Below are positions 22,019 through 28,409 of a DNA stretch of 64,000 nt, piece by piece. Positions within the stretch are counted from its first letter, which is position 1. The number at the start of each line of letters is the position of its first letter. The notes beneath the pieces were generated by a model, which saw only the letters and a list, made by a program, of their open reading frames with translations, ran no database searches and was not told the origin of the DNA. Source of the stretch: Massilia sp. CF038 (GTDB lineage Bacteria > Pseudomonadota > Gammaproteobacteria > Burkholderiales > Burkholderiaceae_D); the NCBI RefSeq assembly GCF_900129765.1, contig NZ_FQWU01000001.1, forward strand, positions 1,116,001 to 1,180,000, in the 5' to 3' direction. Both the position numbers and the translations under genes were made by a program.

Positions 22019-22729
22019 CTACAACTTTTCCAGCACTGCCGCCTTGTATTGCCGGCTGCACGGCACGCGCGCGCCACCGCGCAGCACCAGTTCGCAGTCG
22101 CCCTTGTCCAGCGCGACCACGCTCTCGATCCACGACAGCTGTACCGCGGCGCGCCGGTGGCAGCGGACAAAGCGCGGCCCCAGTTTGTCCACCAGCCCGG
22201 CCAGGGTCTGGCGCATCAGGGGTGCGCCGGCGGCGGTGTGCAGTACCACGTAATTGTCGGCCGTTTCAATCCACTGCACCTCGTCCACGCGCACCACACG
22301 GGTCACGCCGCGCTCCGTCACCAGCAATTGGGCGATCACATGGCCGCTGTCGAAGGACGCGGGTGTCGCCGGCGTCTGCAGGCGCTGGCGCACGCGCACC
22401 AGGGCCCGCTGCAGGCGCTCCCGGTCGTAGGGTTTGAGCAGGTAGTCGATGGCGTTGGCATCGAAAGCGCGGATCGCGTACTGATCGAAGGCGGTGGCAA
22501 ACACGATCAGGGGCGCCGGGGCCGGCAGAGACGCTGCCAGTTCGATCCCGCTCACTTCCGGCATCTGGATGTCGAGGAACACCACGTCTGGTTTGAAGGC
22601 GGCGATCCGTTCCAGCGCTTCCACGCCGTCGCGCGCTTCATCCAGGGCGCTGACGTCCGCTTCCTGCTCCAGTAAGCGGCGCAGTTTGTCGCGCGCAGGG
22701 CGTTCGTCGTCGACGATCAGAATGCGCAT
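22019..22729 (-). CDS. LytTR family response regulator
   Basis: This 236-residue regulator has a receiver domain (DDE at 7-9, phospho-acceptor D53 in VVFLDIQMPEVSG, lysine in LLKPYDRERL). A C-terminal LytTR DNA-binding domain follows (VDEVQWIETADNYVVLHTAAGAPLMRQTLAGL ... FVRCHRRAAVQLSWIESV). It is the AlgR/LytR type that binds DNA through beta strands. The start overlaps the upstream kinase gene by 13 bases with a GAGG site, so the two form one unit. Confidence 0.94.
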   Translation of the reverse strand: MRILIVDDERPARDKLRRLLEQEADVSALDEARDGVEALERIAAFKPDVVFLDIQMPEVSGIELAASLPAPAPLIVFATAFDQYAIRAFDANAIDYLLKPYDRERLQRALVRVRQRLQTPATPASFDSGHVIAQLLVTERGVTRVVRVDEVQWIETADNYVVLHTAAGAPLMRQTLAGLVDKLGPRFVRCHRRAAVQLSWIESVVALDKGDCELVLRGGARVPCSRQYKAAVLEKL

Positions 22730-23814
22730 GGGATCCTCATTGCGGCGCGTACGCCGGCTGGCTCGCGCTGCGACAGCGTGAGTGTCGCGCGCGCGCCGTA
22801 CAGCACTTCCAGCCGTTCGCGCAGGTTGGACAGGCCGATGCCGGGTTTGCCGCTTGGTGCAAAGGTCCCGGTGTCATCGTCCAGCGTCACGCACAGCATG
22901 TCCGCGTCACGCACGATGGTAATCGTGACATGGGTGAGCTGACGGCGCTTTTCCACGGTGTGCTTGAAGACGTTTTCCAGCAGCGGCTGTATGCTCATGA
23001 CGGGCAGCGTGCAGGCCAGGGTGTCGTCGCCGATCTGCCACTCGATCGCGACCCGGTCCGCATAGCGTTCCTGCATCACCCTTGCGTAGCCTTGCGCGAG
23101 GCGCAGCTCGGTCGACAGCGGTGCTTCGTGCAGGTCGCTGACATCGAGTGTGGTGCGCAGAACTTCGGCCAGCTGGATCAGGGTCGCGTCGGCCTTGTCG
23201 ACGTCCGTGTGCATCAGTGACGAAATGGTGTTCAGGGCGTTGAACAGGAAGTGCGGCTGCATTTGCTGGGCCAGGCGCTGAAGCTGGGCCTGGCGCAGCA
23301 GGGCATTGGCGCGTTCGACACGCAGTTTTTCTTCCAGCAGCTGGTGGTAGGACAGAATGCCGAAGCGGATCAGGAAAAACAGGCTGACAAATACGCTCAG
23401 CTTGAGCGACTCGTACAGGAAGGTTTCGCCCCATGCCTCGTGCTGGTAGACTTGCCCCATCAGCGCGTACACCGCATGACGCATGCCGAAGGCAAGGGGG
23501 ACGAAGGCGGTCCAGTACAGCGGCAGCCAGGCGAATTGCAGCGCGAACCAGCGTGCGGGGCGTGGCAGCAGGGCGGCGTCGTGGTGTTCGGTAAAGTGGC
23601 GCTGGATGAGCAGCAGCAGGGTTGCCGCCAGCATGGAGGAGGTTTCCCATAATATCGGCTGCCAGTAGGCGGTGCCGTCGTCACGTGCGTAATCCTGGAC
23701 GGCGACGGCGACCATCATGATCCAGAACAGGAACCAGGCAAGGATGATGGCGGCGCGGGTGCGGTTCTGGGGCATGGGGGTGGCGGGAATGGGGAAGCGC
23801 TGATGATTGCGCAT
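22717..23814 (-). CDS. LytS/YehU-type sensor histidine kinase
   Basis: This 365-residue kinase has four N-terminal membrane segments (about residues 20-150). The His_kinase domain follows, with phospho-acceptor helix LAQQMQPHFLFNALNTISSLMH, then an ATPase domain with LQPLLENVFKHT and GIGLSNLRERL. There is no separate sensor domain, so the membrane region likely senses the signal. The first Met is used here, and a second at residue 14 (MPQNRTRAA) is equally possible since neither has a strong ribosome site. It is paired with the LytTR regulator. Confidence 0.92.
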   Translation of the reverse strand: MRNHQRFPIPATPMPQNRTRAAIILAWFLFWIMMVAVAVQDYARDDGTAYWQPILWETSSMLAATLLLLIQRHFTEHHDAALLPRPARWFALQFAWLPLYWTAFVPLAFGMRHAVYALMGQVYQHEAWGETFLYESLKLSVFVSLFFLIRFGILSYHQLLEEKLRVERANALLRQAQLQRLAQQMQPHFLFNALNTISSLMHTDVDKADATLIQLAEVLRTTLDVSDLHEAPLSTELRLAQGYARVMQERYADRVAIEWQIGDDTLACTLPVMSIQPLLENVFKHTVEKRRQLTHVTITIVRDADMLCVTLDDDTGTFAPSGKPGIGLSNLRERLEVLYGARATLTLSQREPAGVRAAMRIPCAF

Positions 23815-23957: not shown

Positions 23958-24518
23958 ATGGATCCACTGAAATTCGATTCCCAGGCCGCATTCGCACAAT
24001 GGCTGGCGGCCAATCACGACCGCTCCGACGGCGTCTTCCTGCTGCATGCCAAAAAAGGCAAGGGCGAAACCACGGTCAGCTATGACGAGGCGTTGGAAGT
24101 AGCCCTGTGCTTCGGCTGGATCGACGGCATGCGCAAAAGCGCGGGCGAGCAGTTCTTCATGCAGCGCTGGACCCCGCGCCGCGCACGCAGCATCTGGTCC
24201 AAGGTCAACCGTGACAAGGCGCTGCGCTACATCGAAGAAGGCCGCATGCAGCCAAGTGGCCTGGCGGAAGTCGAACGCGCACGCAAGGATGGCCGCTGGG
24301 ACGCCGCCTACGATTCCGTCAGCAAGGCGCAAGTGCCGCCCGATCTGCAAGCCGCCATGGCCGCAGCCCCCGGTGCCGAAGCCTTCTTTGCCACCCTCAG
24401 TTCGCAGAACCGCTACGCAATCCTGTTCCGCATTCAAACGGCCAAAAAGCCTGAAACGCGGGCTCGCCGTATCGCCCAGTTCACCGCCATGCTGGTGCGC
24501 GGCGAAACGATCCACTAA
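23958..24518 (+). CDS. YdeI/OmpD-associated family protein
   Basis: The 186-residue soluble protein carries the YdeI-like pattern: FDSQAAFAQWLAANHDRSDGVFLLHAKKG, SYDEALEVALCFGWIDGMRK and RWTPRRARSIWSKVNRDKA. It ends in a C-terminal module with KPETRARRIAQFTAML. Family members have been linked to bacteriocin or peptide tolerance in a few organisms, but the mechanism is unknown. I chose the ATG at 23958, just after the repeat, with TGGAGCGGTA in front. An in-frame upstream extension would run through the repeat and is unlikely. Confidence 0.85.
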   Translation: MDPLKFDSQAAFAQWLAANHDRSDGVFLLHAKKGKGETTVSYDEALEVALCFGWIDGMRKSAGEQFFMQRWTPRRARSIWSKVNRDKALRYIEEGRMQPSGLAEVERARKDGRWDAAYDSVSKAQVPPDLQAAMAAAPGAEAFFATLSSQNRYAILFRIQTAKKPETRARRIAQFTAMLVRGETIH

Positions 24519-24524
24519 GCTGAA

Positions 24525-25499
24525 TCAATCGTCGTCGTCATCGCCGTTATCGCGGAATTTTTTGGTCCGTGCCACGTCAAGCTTTGCCTTCAGCGCGTTC
24601 ACGTCGCCCATGAATTCGTCGACGCTATGGTCCGGACTGACCCGCACCGATGGCTGCAAAATGACCGACATGTACGGGCTGTCGGCCAACTGGCCGGTGC
24701 GCTGCTCATTGCCCATTAAGGTCAGCCCCGAGGCAAGAATGGCCAGAATCAGGGAGGTGATCGCAAAGCGCCGCGTGTGGTGCGGGCGCACCGTGTTCAG
24801 GTGATGGAACAGGGTGCCGGCCGCGATCAGAATCGCCACGTGCGAACTGTAACGGGTCAGGAATTCAAGCGAGAATGCATAGGCCACCAGGCTCGAAATG
24901 ATCTTGAATGCGGTGACGGCGGTCAGGCCGCAGCCCAGTACAAACAGGTGGCGGCCCAGGCGTACGTGGCGCCCGAACAGACGATTGCCGAAGGCCCAGG
25001 CGCCAGCCCATACCAGCCCGCCGCCCATGCCGTAGGCCAGCGCCTGCAAATAGCGCACCAGCTGGAACGACTGGGTGTCCGACAGCCAGACCGTAAAGAC
25101 GGCAAAAAAGCCGATCATCAACATGCCAACCAGGCCAGGCGCCAGTCCCTCCCAGCCGTGACGGGTGCGGTCCAGCAGTTCCGGCGCCACGGCGTAGTCT
25201 GCCCCGCGCACGCGCAAGGTGGTGTGGCCGATGCGGATCTCGGTATCGCCCGTCATCAGCAGCGTTGGATGACGCCGTCCGCGGTGAATCACACCATTTT
25301 TGGTGCCCAGATCGCGCAGCACCAGCGCACCGTCTTCACGTGCTTCAATCACGGCATGGTTCGGCGCTGCGTAAGCATCGTCGATGATGAAGTCGTTGTC
25401 GTAGCCACGGCCAAGGCGGATCGGCAGCGCGTCGACCTGGTGCCGGTGCAGCACGTCGCCATTCCGGGCCAGCATTTCAATGAAGTAGGGCGCGTTCAT
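24525..25499 (-). CDS. FHA-domain membrane protein
   Basis: The 324-residue protein has an N-terminal forkhead-associated domain (about 1-100): LGRGYDNDF with the key Arg, then APNHAVIEA and LGTKNGV. Five or six membrane segments follow (about 120-275), then a soluble tail ending in five aspartates. FHA domains bind phosphothreonine, but the usual Ser of the SxxH motif is Ala here, so binding may be weak or altered. Its start overlaps the stop of the serine protease gene by four bases, so the pair is co-translated. Confidence 0.85.
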   Translation of the reverse strand: MNAPYFIEMLARNGDVLHRHQVDALPIRLGRGYDNDFIIDDAYAAPNHAVIEAREDGALVLRDLGTKNGVIHRGRRHPTLLMTGDTEIRIGHTTLRVRGADYAVAPELLDRTRHGWEGLAPGLVGMLMIGFFAVFTVWLSDTQSFQLVRYLQALAYGMGGGLVWAGAWAFGNRLFGRHVRLGRHLFVLGCGLTAVTAFKIISSLVAYAFSLEFLTRYSSHVAILIAAGTLFHHLNTVRPHHTRRFAITSLILAILASGLTLMGNEQRTGQLADSPYMSVILQPSVRVSPDHSVDEFMGDVNALKAKLDVARTKKFRDNGDDDDD

Positions 25500-26917
25500 T
25501 TGCTGCCTCCACGTCCCAGTGCATCGAGGAAGGCGCGCGTGGTGCGCATGCCATTTTCGTAGGACACGCCCGATACATCGAGCCGGCTTTGCAAGCTGGC
25601 CTTGGCGTCGTCGGTGGTGGCGGTCAGCAGGGTGAAGTTGTACAGACCTTCAAATTTGCGGTAGGCCCGCACGCAGCTCACTGCGCGCAGCGGCAGCGTT
25701 TTGGTCTTGACGAACGACTCGGTGCAGATTGGCGAAGTCAGATGAGCGTCCTTGTTGTTGCCGAGATTGTCTGCCTTGAACAAGGTGCTGGCCAGGACCG
25801 CAAAGCGCACGGAATCGAGCGTGGTGGTGCGCACATACTGGTGCGTCATTGATACATGCCCGGTCTGCTGCGACTCCGACACAAAAATCGCCGACTCCAT
25901 CGCACACGCCATGGTGTCAGCCGTGAAGGTGGCTTCGGCCTTGACGTTCGAGCGCCCCCAGCAGCGCACCTGATCCGACTCGCGCACCGGTACCAGGTAA
26001 GGCCCCATGCTCTTGATGGCCAGCGGCTTGTCGAGCAGACGGTCGATCATGGCTTTTTGATGCGCCAGCAGCTGCTGGCCGATCAAGGGATTGAAGTCCT
26101 TGGGCGCCACAGCTTGCGCGGCGACCTTGCGCAGCAGCTCCTGCGCGTAGCGGATCGGCACCAGGAAGCTGACCAGTTCCCCATCGCGCCGCTTCGATAC
26201 GTTCACGCCAGCGACCGCGCCGCTGCCAGTTACGCTCGGACCGCCGCTCATGCCCGAGTTGATCGGGCCGGTGAACATCAGCTGGTCATAAAAGCTGCGG
26301 GTGATGACGCCATTGTAGGCGCCCTCGGAGATGGCAAAGCCCAGGTCCAGCGGATTGCCAAGGGAGTACAGGTACTGACCCTGGGTCAGTTTGACCAGGC
26401 GATCGGGGATGTCGAAAAAGCCGGTGCCCTTGCGGTTGATGCGCACCACGGCCAGGTCGTGCAGCACGTCCACGGCCAGCAGTTCGACCGGTCCGCGCTT
26501 GCCGTCGGTGTCGACGAATTCGCCCACGTACACATCTGGGTCGATCGCCATCTGCGACACCACATGGTAATTGGTCAGCACAAGATTGCTGGTGCCAACC
26601 ATGAAGCCGGAGCCGACCGATGACTGGCTGCGCCCGTTCTTGAGCAGCATGCGAATTTGCAGCAGGTCGTCCTTGGCGGCCGAATAGAGCTTTTGCGCGG
26701 CCGTCGACGGTGGTGGCAGCGCCGCATTTTCTTCTTCTGGCGCGACTGGGGTGGCGGCGGGTGGCGCAACGGCGGCAGGCGGCAGAACAGGGGCAGACGG
26801 CGAGGGCGCCACCGGCTTGACCGGTGCGGCTTTGGCGGGCGGCGCAGGGCTTTGCGCCAGCGAGAACGCGGTGGCGCCAGCGAGCGACAGCAGAACCGCC
26901 ATTTGAGAGAATTTCAT
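25496..26917 (-). CDS. secreted trypsin-like serine protease, DegP/HtrA-like core without PDZ
   Basis: The 473-residue protein has a signal peptide (about 1-21) and a Pro/Ala-rich linker (22-70). A trypsin-like domain follows with an intact triad: H118 in LTNYHVV, D154 in HDLAVVRI and S224 in GMSGGPS. Instead of a PDZ domain, the C-terminal 190 residues form an unrecognised domain with several cysteines (near CWGR, MACAM, SPICTES and SCVRAY). It is the first gene of a two-gene unit with the FHA membrane protein. A linked envelope-signalling or quality-control role is plausible but unproven. Confidence 0.88.
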   Translation of the reverse strand: MKFSQMAVLLSLAGATAFSLAQSPAPPAKAAPVKPVAPSPSAPVLPPAAVAPPAATPVAPEEENAALPPPSTAAQKLYSAAKDDLLQIRMLLKNGRSQSSVGSGFMVGTSNLVLTNYHVVSQMAIDPDVYVGEFVDTDGKRGPVELLAVDVLHDLAVVRINRKGTGFFDIPDRLVKLTQGQYLYSLGNPLDLGFAISEGAYNGVITRSFYDQLMFTGPINSGMSGGPSVTGSGAVAGVNVSKRRDGELVSFLVPIRYAQELLRKVAAQAVAPKDFNPLIGQQLLAHQKAMIDRLLDKPLAIKSMGPYLVPVRESDQVRCWGRSNVKAEATFTADTMACAMESAIFVSESQQTGHVSMTHQYVRTTTLDSVRFAVLASTLFKADNLGNNKDAHLTSPICTESFVKTKTLPLRAVSCVRAYRKFEGLYNFTLLTATTDDAKASLQSRLDVSGVSYENGMRTTRAFLDALGRGGSK

Positions 26918-26976
26918 GCCATCCTGACGTGGTAAGCGGGGTAGTACTTGCCCTTAGCTTACCGTATTTGCCGGAT

Positions 26977-27624
26977 TTAGAGTTCGCCGTCCTGTGCGAC
27001 GGTTTCGGCCAGCGGCTGCATCATGTGGCCCATCTTGGCTGCCTTGGTGTCAAGGTAGGCGGTATTGAAGGCGTTGCGGTTCACCAGCAGGGGCACGCGC
27101 TCGCTCACGCGCACGCCCAGCTTTTCCATGGCGTCAATCTTGCGCGGGTTGTTGGTCATCAGCTTCAGCGTCTTGATGCCGAACTGGGCAAACATGGGCT
27201 CGCACAAAGCGTAGTTGCGCGCATCGGCATGGAAGCCAAGCGCCAGGTTCGCTTCCACCGTGTCGGCGCCGGCTTCTTGCAAGCGGTAAGCGCGGATTTT
27301 GTTGACGAGGCCAATGCCACGGCCTTCCTGGCGCAAATACAGCAGGATCCCGCGGCCCTCGTCGGCAATCTTCTTGAGGGCGCCTTCGAGCTGGGCGCCA
27401 CAATCGCAGCGTTGTGAAAACAACACGTCGCCCGTCAGGCATTCCGAATGCACGCGCGCCAGCACCGGCTCGCCATTGCCGATGTCGCCCAGCACCATGG
27501 CCAGGTGTTCCTTGCCCGTTGCGTGCTCGACAAAGGCGTGCAGCGTGAACTGGGCCCATGGGGTGGGCAGCAGGCAGGAGGTGGTGTAATCCAACAGGGC
27601 TTCTTCTTTGGGGACGGACGGCAT
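26977..27624 (-). CDS. ribA: GTP cyclohydrolase II
   Basis: RibA opens GTP to the pyrimidine precursor of riboflavin, releasing formate and pyrophosphate. The 215-residue protein has the zinc cysteines C62, C73 and C75 in [20 protein letters not shown]. It also has the GTP-binding [11 protein letters not shown] and the C-terminal [11 protein letters not shown]. It is a free-standing RibA without a fused RibB domain, somewhat longer than the E. coli enzyme at the N-terminus. I saw no FMN riboswitch in the short upstream gap. Confidence 0.95.
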
Positions 27625-27667
27625 GGCTTTGTTCTCGAAACTATTGCTGTAGCCGCAAGTGTAGCGG

Positions 27668-27695
27668 AAAACCCGGCCCCCCGTTGGGGACCGGG
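27668..27695 (-). terminator. rho-independent terminator after the pirin gene
   Basis: Read on the minus strand, CCCGGTCCCC and GGGGGGCCGGG form a strong stem around a short loop, followed by TTTT. It lies directly downstream of the pirin-family gene and upstream of ribA, so it should separate the two transcripts. Confidence 0.75.
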
Positions 27696-27707
27696 CTCTA
27701 AAACCGC

Positions 27708-28409
27708 TTAGTATGGCAGGTCGAAAACCAGCACTTCGGCCGCTTCCGCCTGGGCCAGCTGCACCCCGGACTCGCCCGTGATCTTGAGCGCATCGCCGCC
27801 ACTCAGTGCGGTGCCATTGACGGTGACGCGGCCGCGAATCACGTGCACGTAGCCGCTACGGCCCTGGGCCAAGCTATGCTCGACTGCATCACCCGTGTTC
27901 AGCAGCGTGGCGTAGATGGCGGCATCCTGGTGGATGAGCACCGACCCGTCACGGCCGTCGGACGAGGCCACCAGGCGCAGCTGGCCTTGCTTGGTGTCCG
28001 GGGCGAAGTGTTTTTCCTCATAGCTGGGTGCAATCCCTTTGACATTGGGCTGGATCCAGATTTGCAGGAAATGCACTTGCTCGTTCTGCGAACCGTTGAA
28101 CTCGCTGTGACGCACGCCGCTGCCGGCGCTCATGCGCTGCACGTCGCCATAGTGCAAGACCGAACCGGTGCCGATACTATCCTTGTGTTCAAGCGCCCCT
28201 TCCAGCACGTAGGAAATGATTTCCATATCGCGGTGGCCGTGGGTGCCAAAACCCTGGCCTGGCGCCACTTTGTCTTCATTAATGACCAGCAGAGGGCCAA
28301 AGCCAACGTGGCGCGGATCGTGGTATTCGCCGAACGAAAAGGTGTGCTTCGATTGCAACCAACCGTGGTTGGCGACGCCGCGTTCTTCGTTTTTCCGGAT
28401 TTCGAGCAT
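27708..28409 (-). CDS. pirin family protein
   Basis: This 233-residue bicupin has an N-terminal pirin domain with metal-binding histidines in [19 protein letters not shown] and [13 protein letters not shown]. The C-terminal cupin is weaker. It resembles YhhW, which has quercetin dioxygenase activity, though the natural substrates of the group are unclear. I chose the ATG at 28409 because CCAGGAGAAAAAC precedes it. The divergent LysR regulator (28539) very likely controls it. A strong terminator follows. Confidence 0.92.

Follow-up and report, generated by a model that had tools for sequence, protein, structure and literature searches.

To our knowledge, few systems are known in which the cytoplasm controls proteolysis across the membrane. 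Proteases of the HtrA/Deg (S1C) group, such as DegP, DegQ, DegS and HhoA, carry at least one PDZ domain. FHA domains contact phosphate through an Arg, the Ser of an SxxH motif and an Asn, and their usual ligand is a phosphothreonine protein. In the LapD-LapG system, LapD is a GGDEF/EAL receptor for c-di-GMP and LapG is a cysteine protease (Peptidase_C93). Excerpts of three reports describe inside-out, c-di-GMP-dependent control of periplasmic proteolysis by this transmembrane receptor (PMC3032545, PMC3032553, PMC4359373).

Here we analyzed two adjacent genes in a 64,000-nucleotide stretch of the genome of Massilia sp. CF038 (hereafter the window), which encode a trypsin-like protease with predicted export and a membrane protein with an FHA domain. 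As in LapD-LapG, a cytoplasmic state may control a periplasmic protease, a likeness that we propose from predicted topology and gene linkage. The two systems share neither protein family, however: the reader would be an FHA domain instead of GGDEF/EAL, on a protein whose five predicted helices are followed by a short tail, and the enzyme is a serine protease of the trypsin-like type, unlike the cysteine protease LapG. Pfam searches found no Peptidase_C93 in the window protease (E ≤ 1) and no GGDEF/EAL in the membrane protein. With the HtrA/Deg enzymes, the protease shares a trypsin-like catalytic domain, predicted to be secreted, and a complete His-Asp-Ser triad, but it lacks a PDZ domain, carries a different C-terminal domain and scores below every NCBIfam cut-off. 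The FHA domain has the fold of known readers (GarA/OdhI, FhaA, EmbR, Rv1747), with the FHA domains of CT664, OdhI and GarA as top structural matches and Rv1747, CT664 and EmbR as top sequence matches; it differs from those readers in having Ala at the Ser position of SxxH and in sitting on a five-helix protein coupled to a protease gene. Among the literature matches listed for the pair or its domains, titles and the beginnings of abstracts indicated no paper on the pair. A Bacteroides FHA-FHA-trypsin fusion, listed in an excerpt of PMC2605481, is distinct from it.

Architecture of the locus and its two products

The minus strand carries both genes, the protease gene first (26917-25496) and the gene for the FHA-membrane protein second (25499-24525), with the following features:

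25496..26917 (-), trypsin-like serine protease gene, product predicted to be secreted; 473 aa, triad H118/D154/S224, without PDZ
26855..26917 (-), Sec signal peptide predicted for residues 1-21, from the sequence read by eye
After the signal peptide, to residue ~66 (-), Pro/Ala-rich linker of the protease, read by eye
26120..26629 (-), trypsin-like catalytic domain, residues ~97-266 (PF13365 at 102-238, PF00089 at 97-246)
25499..26092 (-), C-terminal domain of the protease, residues 276-473; four invariant Cys, without a Pfam family
25506..25510 (-), GGAGG resembling a Shine-Dalgarno site for the FHA gene, within the protease gene, from sequence
25496..25499 (-), four-base ATGA overlap of the protease and FHA genes, from sequence
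24525..25499 (-), FHA-membrane protein gene, five predicted transmembrane helices; 324 aa
25227..25421 (-), FHA domain, residues 27-91; R31, H48 and N68 kept, Ala45 at the SxxH Ser position
24696..25145 (-), membrane region of five predicted helices (residues 119-268); orientation N-in/C-out according to the positive-inside rule
24528..24707 (-), tail predicted to be periplasmic (residues 265-324), variable at its acidic end but with the pattern Y...L.PP......s.d.F conserved

The GGAGG site lies six bases upstream of the ATG of the FHA gene. The four-base overlap claimed in the initial annotation is present, and both open reading frames lie where it had placed them. No sigma-70 promoter was found in a scan of positions 24400-27800.

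The catalytic domain of the protease matched Trypsin_2 with an E-value of 4.2e-21, and Trypsin_2 and Trypsin were its sole Pfam matches at E ≤ 1. The initial annotation had described a secreted, PDZ-less protease with a complete triad, a description that agrees with our results: export is predicted, no PDZ domain was found at E ≤ 1 in the window protease or in the C-terminal domains of 28 homologs, and H118, D154 and S224 are each conserved in 36 of 36 proteins of the family sample, the 37th row being truncated. The triad was also complete in 20/20 order proteins, 20/20 class proteins and 14/14 proteins of a further set that includes the phylum loci. The best NCBIfam matches belong to the HtrA/Deg group, all of them below the curated cut-offs (the best at 67 versus 416 bits), and these scores together with the missing PDZ rule out an ordinary HtrA. 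We also discarded a defence system as an explanation; the PADLOC matches (RT-Protease_XI and a weak nacht match) span the trypsin domain only. The structural model of the protease was poor over its catalytic part, with pLDDT below 50 across residues 1-229.

The cysteine-containing C-terminal domain noted in the initial annotation is real and strongly conserved. Each of its four cysteines (319, 338, 398 and 415) is found in 37/37 proteins of the family sample, 20/20 order proteins and 20/20 class proteins, and in 14, 14, 13 and 13, respectively, of the 14 proteins of the further set, in which one row is truncated. The model of this domain reached a pLDDT of at least 79 in 14 of 21 ten-residue blocks, with dips to 53-67. 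Its strand layout would bring Cys319 close to Cys338, and Cys398 close to Cys415, in two hairpins, which would allow two disulphides. Neither a Pfam family (28 homologs) nor, in a sequence search of the PDB that used the profile of the C-terminal domain, a relative (E 0.34 at best) was found. The initial annotation could not place the domain and had proposed structure prediction, which gave a partial answer: Foldseek over the PDB returned no match below 1e-3 for the protease model, and the listed matches had E-values of 1.8e-3 at best and target TM scores below 0.5, but a structural second look, effectively covering residues 296-472 and barely probing other parts of the protease, pointed to the PsbP/Mog1/DcrB fold. 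It retrieved Tli4/TplEi (Z 10.5-10.1), PsbP (up to 9.7), DcrB (9.0), Mog1 (8.6) and the PknH sensor (7.3); matches of the PsbP/Mog1/DcrB type had Z values between 7.3 and 10.5 for aligned lengths of 114-154 residues and made up most rows at Z ≥ 8, and RseB was likewise among the matches (Z 5.8). We therefore tentatively assign the modelled domain to a PsbP/Mog1/DcrB-like alpha/beta sandwich. The predicted fold is what it has in common with PsbP, DcrB, Mog1, Apa, LpqN, Tli4/TplEi and the PknH sensor; it differs from them in showing no detected sequence relation, in its four invariant cysteines and in its fusion to a protease.

In the membrane protein, the FHA domain matched PF00498 (E 3.5e-10) and its modelled structure matched the CT664 FHA domain in Foldseek (E 8.6e-9). 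The other Pfam matches, YscD_cpl and Yip1, were both below their cut-offs. The model, with a mean pLDDT of 82.5, consists of the FHA domain and five helices. Across 61 sequences, loops 2 and 4 carry means of 3.9 and 3.5 Lys plus Arg versus 0.2 in loop 1 and 0.8 in loop 3, a concentration of positive charge that predicts a cytoplasmic FHA domain and an external tail, on the same side as the protease. For the tail itself, the positive-inside argument is weaker because of its Lys and Arg content (means of 7.8 K+R and 11.7 D+E in 58.5 residues). The penta-Asp tail pointed out in the initial annotation is present in the window protein, where it is predicted to be periplasmic, but it does not characterize the family, as DDDDD near the end occurs in 5/37 family proteins and 0/52 distant ones. 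What is kept across 146 pairs is the pattern Y...L.PP......s.d.F. A covariation scan of these pairs (about 61 effective sequences) placed 8 tail-protease pairs in the top 100 versus about 16 expected, hence no excess; the top pair, F2-P470, sits at the overlapping gene ends. Covariation was therefore dropped as support for contact between tail and protease.

Linkage of the two genes across genomes

The initial annotation had suggested searching for conservation of the gene pair, on the grounds that genes occurring mostly apart would speak against a joint device; the genes are almost never apart. Our samples comprised 145 genomes of the family, 250 of the order, 321 of the class and 349 of the phylum. 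Since any HtrA protein matches the protease, its search hit 144/145 family genomes, and strong matches were delimited at E ≤ 5.2e-58 for the protease, the next value being 3.6e-14, and at E ≤ 7.6e-84 for the FHA-membrane protein. Strong matches to both genes were found in the same 37 of the 145 family genomes, and no genome had a strong match to one gene alone. In each of the 37 pairs, the genes are direct neighbours on a single strand, with a four-base overlap in 35, a one-base overlap in one and a 77-base gap in one; at one locus (L069), only the C-terminal end of the protease is present, at a contig edge. Across named genomes, a scan turned up 209 encoding stretches, 80 of which were kept as loci. 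Both genes were present at 78 of these, with the four-base overlap kept in 65, and the remaining two loci run out at a contig edge; two of the 78 pairs have short FHA reading frames (L072, 236 aa; L096, cut, 187 aa). The closest named match of the protease C-terminal domain was from Massilia sp. H-1 (91%).

The association extends well beyond the family. The C-terminal domain of the protease was found in 25/250 order genomes at 26 places, 25 of them outside the window's own genome (20 were fetched with flanks), and an FHA-membrane neighbour is present at 26/26. No FHA-membrane protein apart from the protease was found in the 250 order genomes; the other matches to its profile stop by position 132 and are thus FHA domains alone. 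In one order genome (G254), the pair is present twice, on separate contigs (L222 and G254:C52:4926-6424). In the class sample, the domain was found in 22/321 genomes, and the 21 places besides the window's own comprise 19 with the FHA-membrane partner, one with an FHA-less version and one cut by a contig end (L302); at one locus counted as paired (L256), the contig ends after the FHA part of the partner. The phylum sample (17/349 genomes) added 13 new places, five of them in other classes, with the partner at 13/13. Overall, the pair is kept at 52 of 53 distant loci, which represent 30 further families and include other classes. Overlap lengths at distant loci are unreliable, since start codons were set by script and several reading frames begin far upstream (e.g., L210, L251, L263, L289 and L301). 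A search of plasmids gave no match at E 1e-20. Over 146 pairs, divergence of the protease correlates with that of the membrane part plus tail (r 0.98) and with that of the FHA domain (r 0.94), in both cases partly through ordinary vertical descent.

No third gene shares this conservation. In the window, ribA (GTP cyclohydrolase II; 26977-27624) is on the same strand as the protease gene, 59 bases upstream of it; the fetched flanks contained ribA for 71/80 near relatives and 0/53 distant loci. When reading frames of at least 120 aa were clustered at the 53 distant loci (30 families), no third sense gene recurred in more than five families; a cluster spanning six families is the protease gene's shadow on the opposite strand. 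We thus rejected a conserved third partner. The window also contains, on the minus strand at 22019-23814, histidine kinase and LytTR response regulator genes with a 13-base overlap, relatives of which occur in the flanks of 46 and 45, respectively, of 80 near relatives. In family f199 (L268:3086-6248 and L267:4063-7411), the pair follows a tyrosyl-tRNA synthetase-like gene that has a four-base overlap with the protease gene.

Conservation and loss of the FHA pocket

The initial annotation had noted that the FHA domain lost the Ser of SxxH while keeping Arg and Asn. This is correct for the window protein (Ala45, R31, N68) and for its family, in which R31, Ala45, H48 and N68 are each found in 37/37 proteins. 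Among the 78 FHA proteins of the scan, one of them gapped, R31, H48 and N68 are kept in 77/77, and position 45 is Ala in 75 and Gly in two. The Ser position varies further out: Ser in nine, Ala in nine and Arg in one of 19 order proteins; Ser in eight, Ala in six, Cys in four and Asp in two of 20 proteins of the class plus L225; and Cys in six, Ala in three, Ser in three and Asp in one of 13 phylum proteins. In these three sets, Arg31 is kept in 16/19, 18/20 and 13/13 proteins and Asn68 in 16/19, 19/20 and 13/13, and H48 is kept in 13/13 phylum proteins. Phosphothreonine recognition by the FHA domain is plausible in most members.

In some lineages, however, the domain has decayed or disappeared while the membrane part, the tail and the protease persist. 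Genus g81 (family f38) has lost the phosphate pocket in all three of its pair-bearing genomes that were read (L208, L209 and L196, the last by eye), and Pfam detected no FHA match at the pair in any of them. In family f199, the FHA domain of L267 is present with its Arg replaced by Ser, and the partner at L268 has only 213 aa, shares 39% identity with the L267 membrane part plus tail across 189 residues, and starts inside the end of the protease gene, leaving no space for an FHA domain; a search of the whole L268 genome gave no FHA match. With the pocket lost in the g81 genomes and the whole FHA domain lost in one genome while the rest is kept, phosphate reading by FHA cannot be the indispensable function of the pair.

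The kinase context gives a mixed picture. PF00069 matched seven times in the window's genome, with the closest match roughly 150 kb away on the contig that carries the pair. Kinase genes were found on the same strand in the flanks of 3/53 distant loci (L249, L250 and L296) and in none of the flanks of 80 near relatives and 20 order loci. L249 (4070-9644) and L250 (3951-9633), from different families, share a same-strand run of kinase, PP2C, rph, rdgB, protease and FHA genes. At L249, the kinase, PP2C, rph, rdgB (Ham1 family) and hemW (HemN_C) were checked against Pfam; at L250, rph and the kinase were checked, and rdgB and PP2C were named by reading. At L296, a CHASE2-kinase gene lies directly downstream of the FHA gene. 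These nearby kinases are suggestive only as a hint of phospho-input. Co-occurrence is uninformative and was rejected as evidence: 52/55 pair-bearing genomes have a PF00069 match, but so do 282/321 class genomes, kinases being near universal in the class (20/22 of its pair-bearing genomes). The three pair-bearing genomes with no PF00069 match are G534 (no FHA), G645 (decayed pocket) and G309, which is 97% complete and keeps Arg, His and Asn intact. The two f199 genomes, in which no Ser/Thr kinase was matched, fit a loss of the reader along with the writer, in one lineage with small genomes; as G534 and G645 belong to one family with small genomes, they count as at most one event. Conversely, the pocket is gone in g81 genomes G266, G337 and G366 despite 9 to 13 kinase matches each, so phospho-reading is not required there.

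Function of the pair

Because the genes are almost never apart, they probably form a little-known device controlling envelope proteolysis. Our preferred reading, to which we give about even weight, is that they are one functional unit consisting of an inner-membrane regulator or anchor and a dedicated periplasmic protease, with the FHA domain as cytoplasmic input. The FHA domain would read the cytoplasm, its usual ligand a phosphothreonine protein, and its state could be relayed across the five helices to the periplasmic side. There, the conserved tail would most likely recruit, retain or free the protease according to the FHA-bound ligand, probably through physical contact with the C-terminal domain, and the exported protease would act on a putative envelope substrate, the signal presumably running outwards. 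The core unit would be the protease and the membrane protein with its periplasmic tail, with FHA as its usual input. A more specific version is tentative, and we hold it well below the general one: Ser/Thr kinases would set the state of the FHA-membrane protein, and its tail would toggle a protease with a PsbP/Mog1-like tail domain, making the pair a phosphothreonine-gated inside-out switch. The initial annotation had envisaged a two-part envelope signalling device linking cytoplasmic phospho-recognition to periplasmic proteolysis; its two-part nature is borne out by linkage, overlap, predicted topology and triad, but phospho-recognition is dispensable in some lineages.

That dispensability also suits another arrangement, in which the membrane protein only tethers, folds or stabilizes the protease and the FHA domain serves non-phospho docking or structure, with no signal passing. 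The membrane part and tail survive decay of the pocket (L208, L209, L196 and L267) or absence of FHA (L268), and the SxxH Ser position varies between Ser, Ala, Cys, Asp and once Arg in distant members. A purely structural FHA domain would not need its phosphate-contact residues, as their roles are generally understood, kept as exactly as they are (R31, H48 and N68 in 37/37 family and 13/13 phylum proteins), and we consider this arrangement rather unlikely. The signal might instead run inwards, a direction akin to DegS-RseA: the C-terminal domain would sense the envelope, and the protease would cleave or bind the tail and so alter the cytoplasmic action of FHA. Tail and protease share a compartment by predicted topology, the tail is conserved, and the model of the C-terminal domain has, among others, the PknH extracellular domain as a structural match at Z 7.3 and RseB at Z 5.8. 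Those Z values, however, are within the range that the tool calls common, and the pair is kept in an FHA-less genome, where FHA-mediated cytoplasmic output is impossible; we regard an inward relay as improbable. Least probable, in our judgement, is that an operon holds two non-contacting neighbours together for dosage alone. The absence of tail-protease covariation would agree with that, but adjacency holds at 53 distant loci of 30 families where other neighbours mostly differ, one of these loci having the FHA-less partner, and no FHA-membrane protein occurs away from the protease in the 250 order genomes.

As a two-gene unit conserved over about 30 families, the pair offers a compact, testable case of cross-membrane protease control, and it draws attention to an unnamed cysteine-bearing domain. 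The decay and loss of FHA in some lineages is a natural experiment that separates the reader from the core machine. If the phosphothreonine-gated switch is true, the pair would be an FHA counterpart of LapD-LapG that occurs in many proteobacterial families and that the literature searched does not describe.
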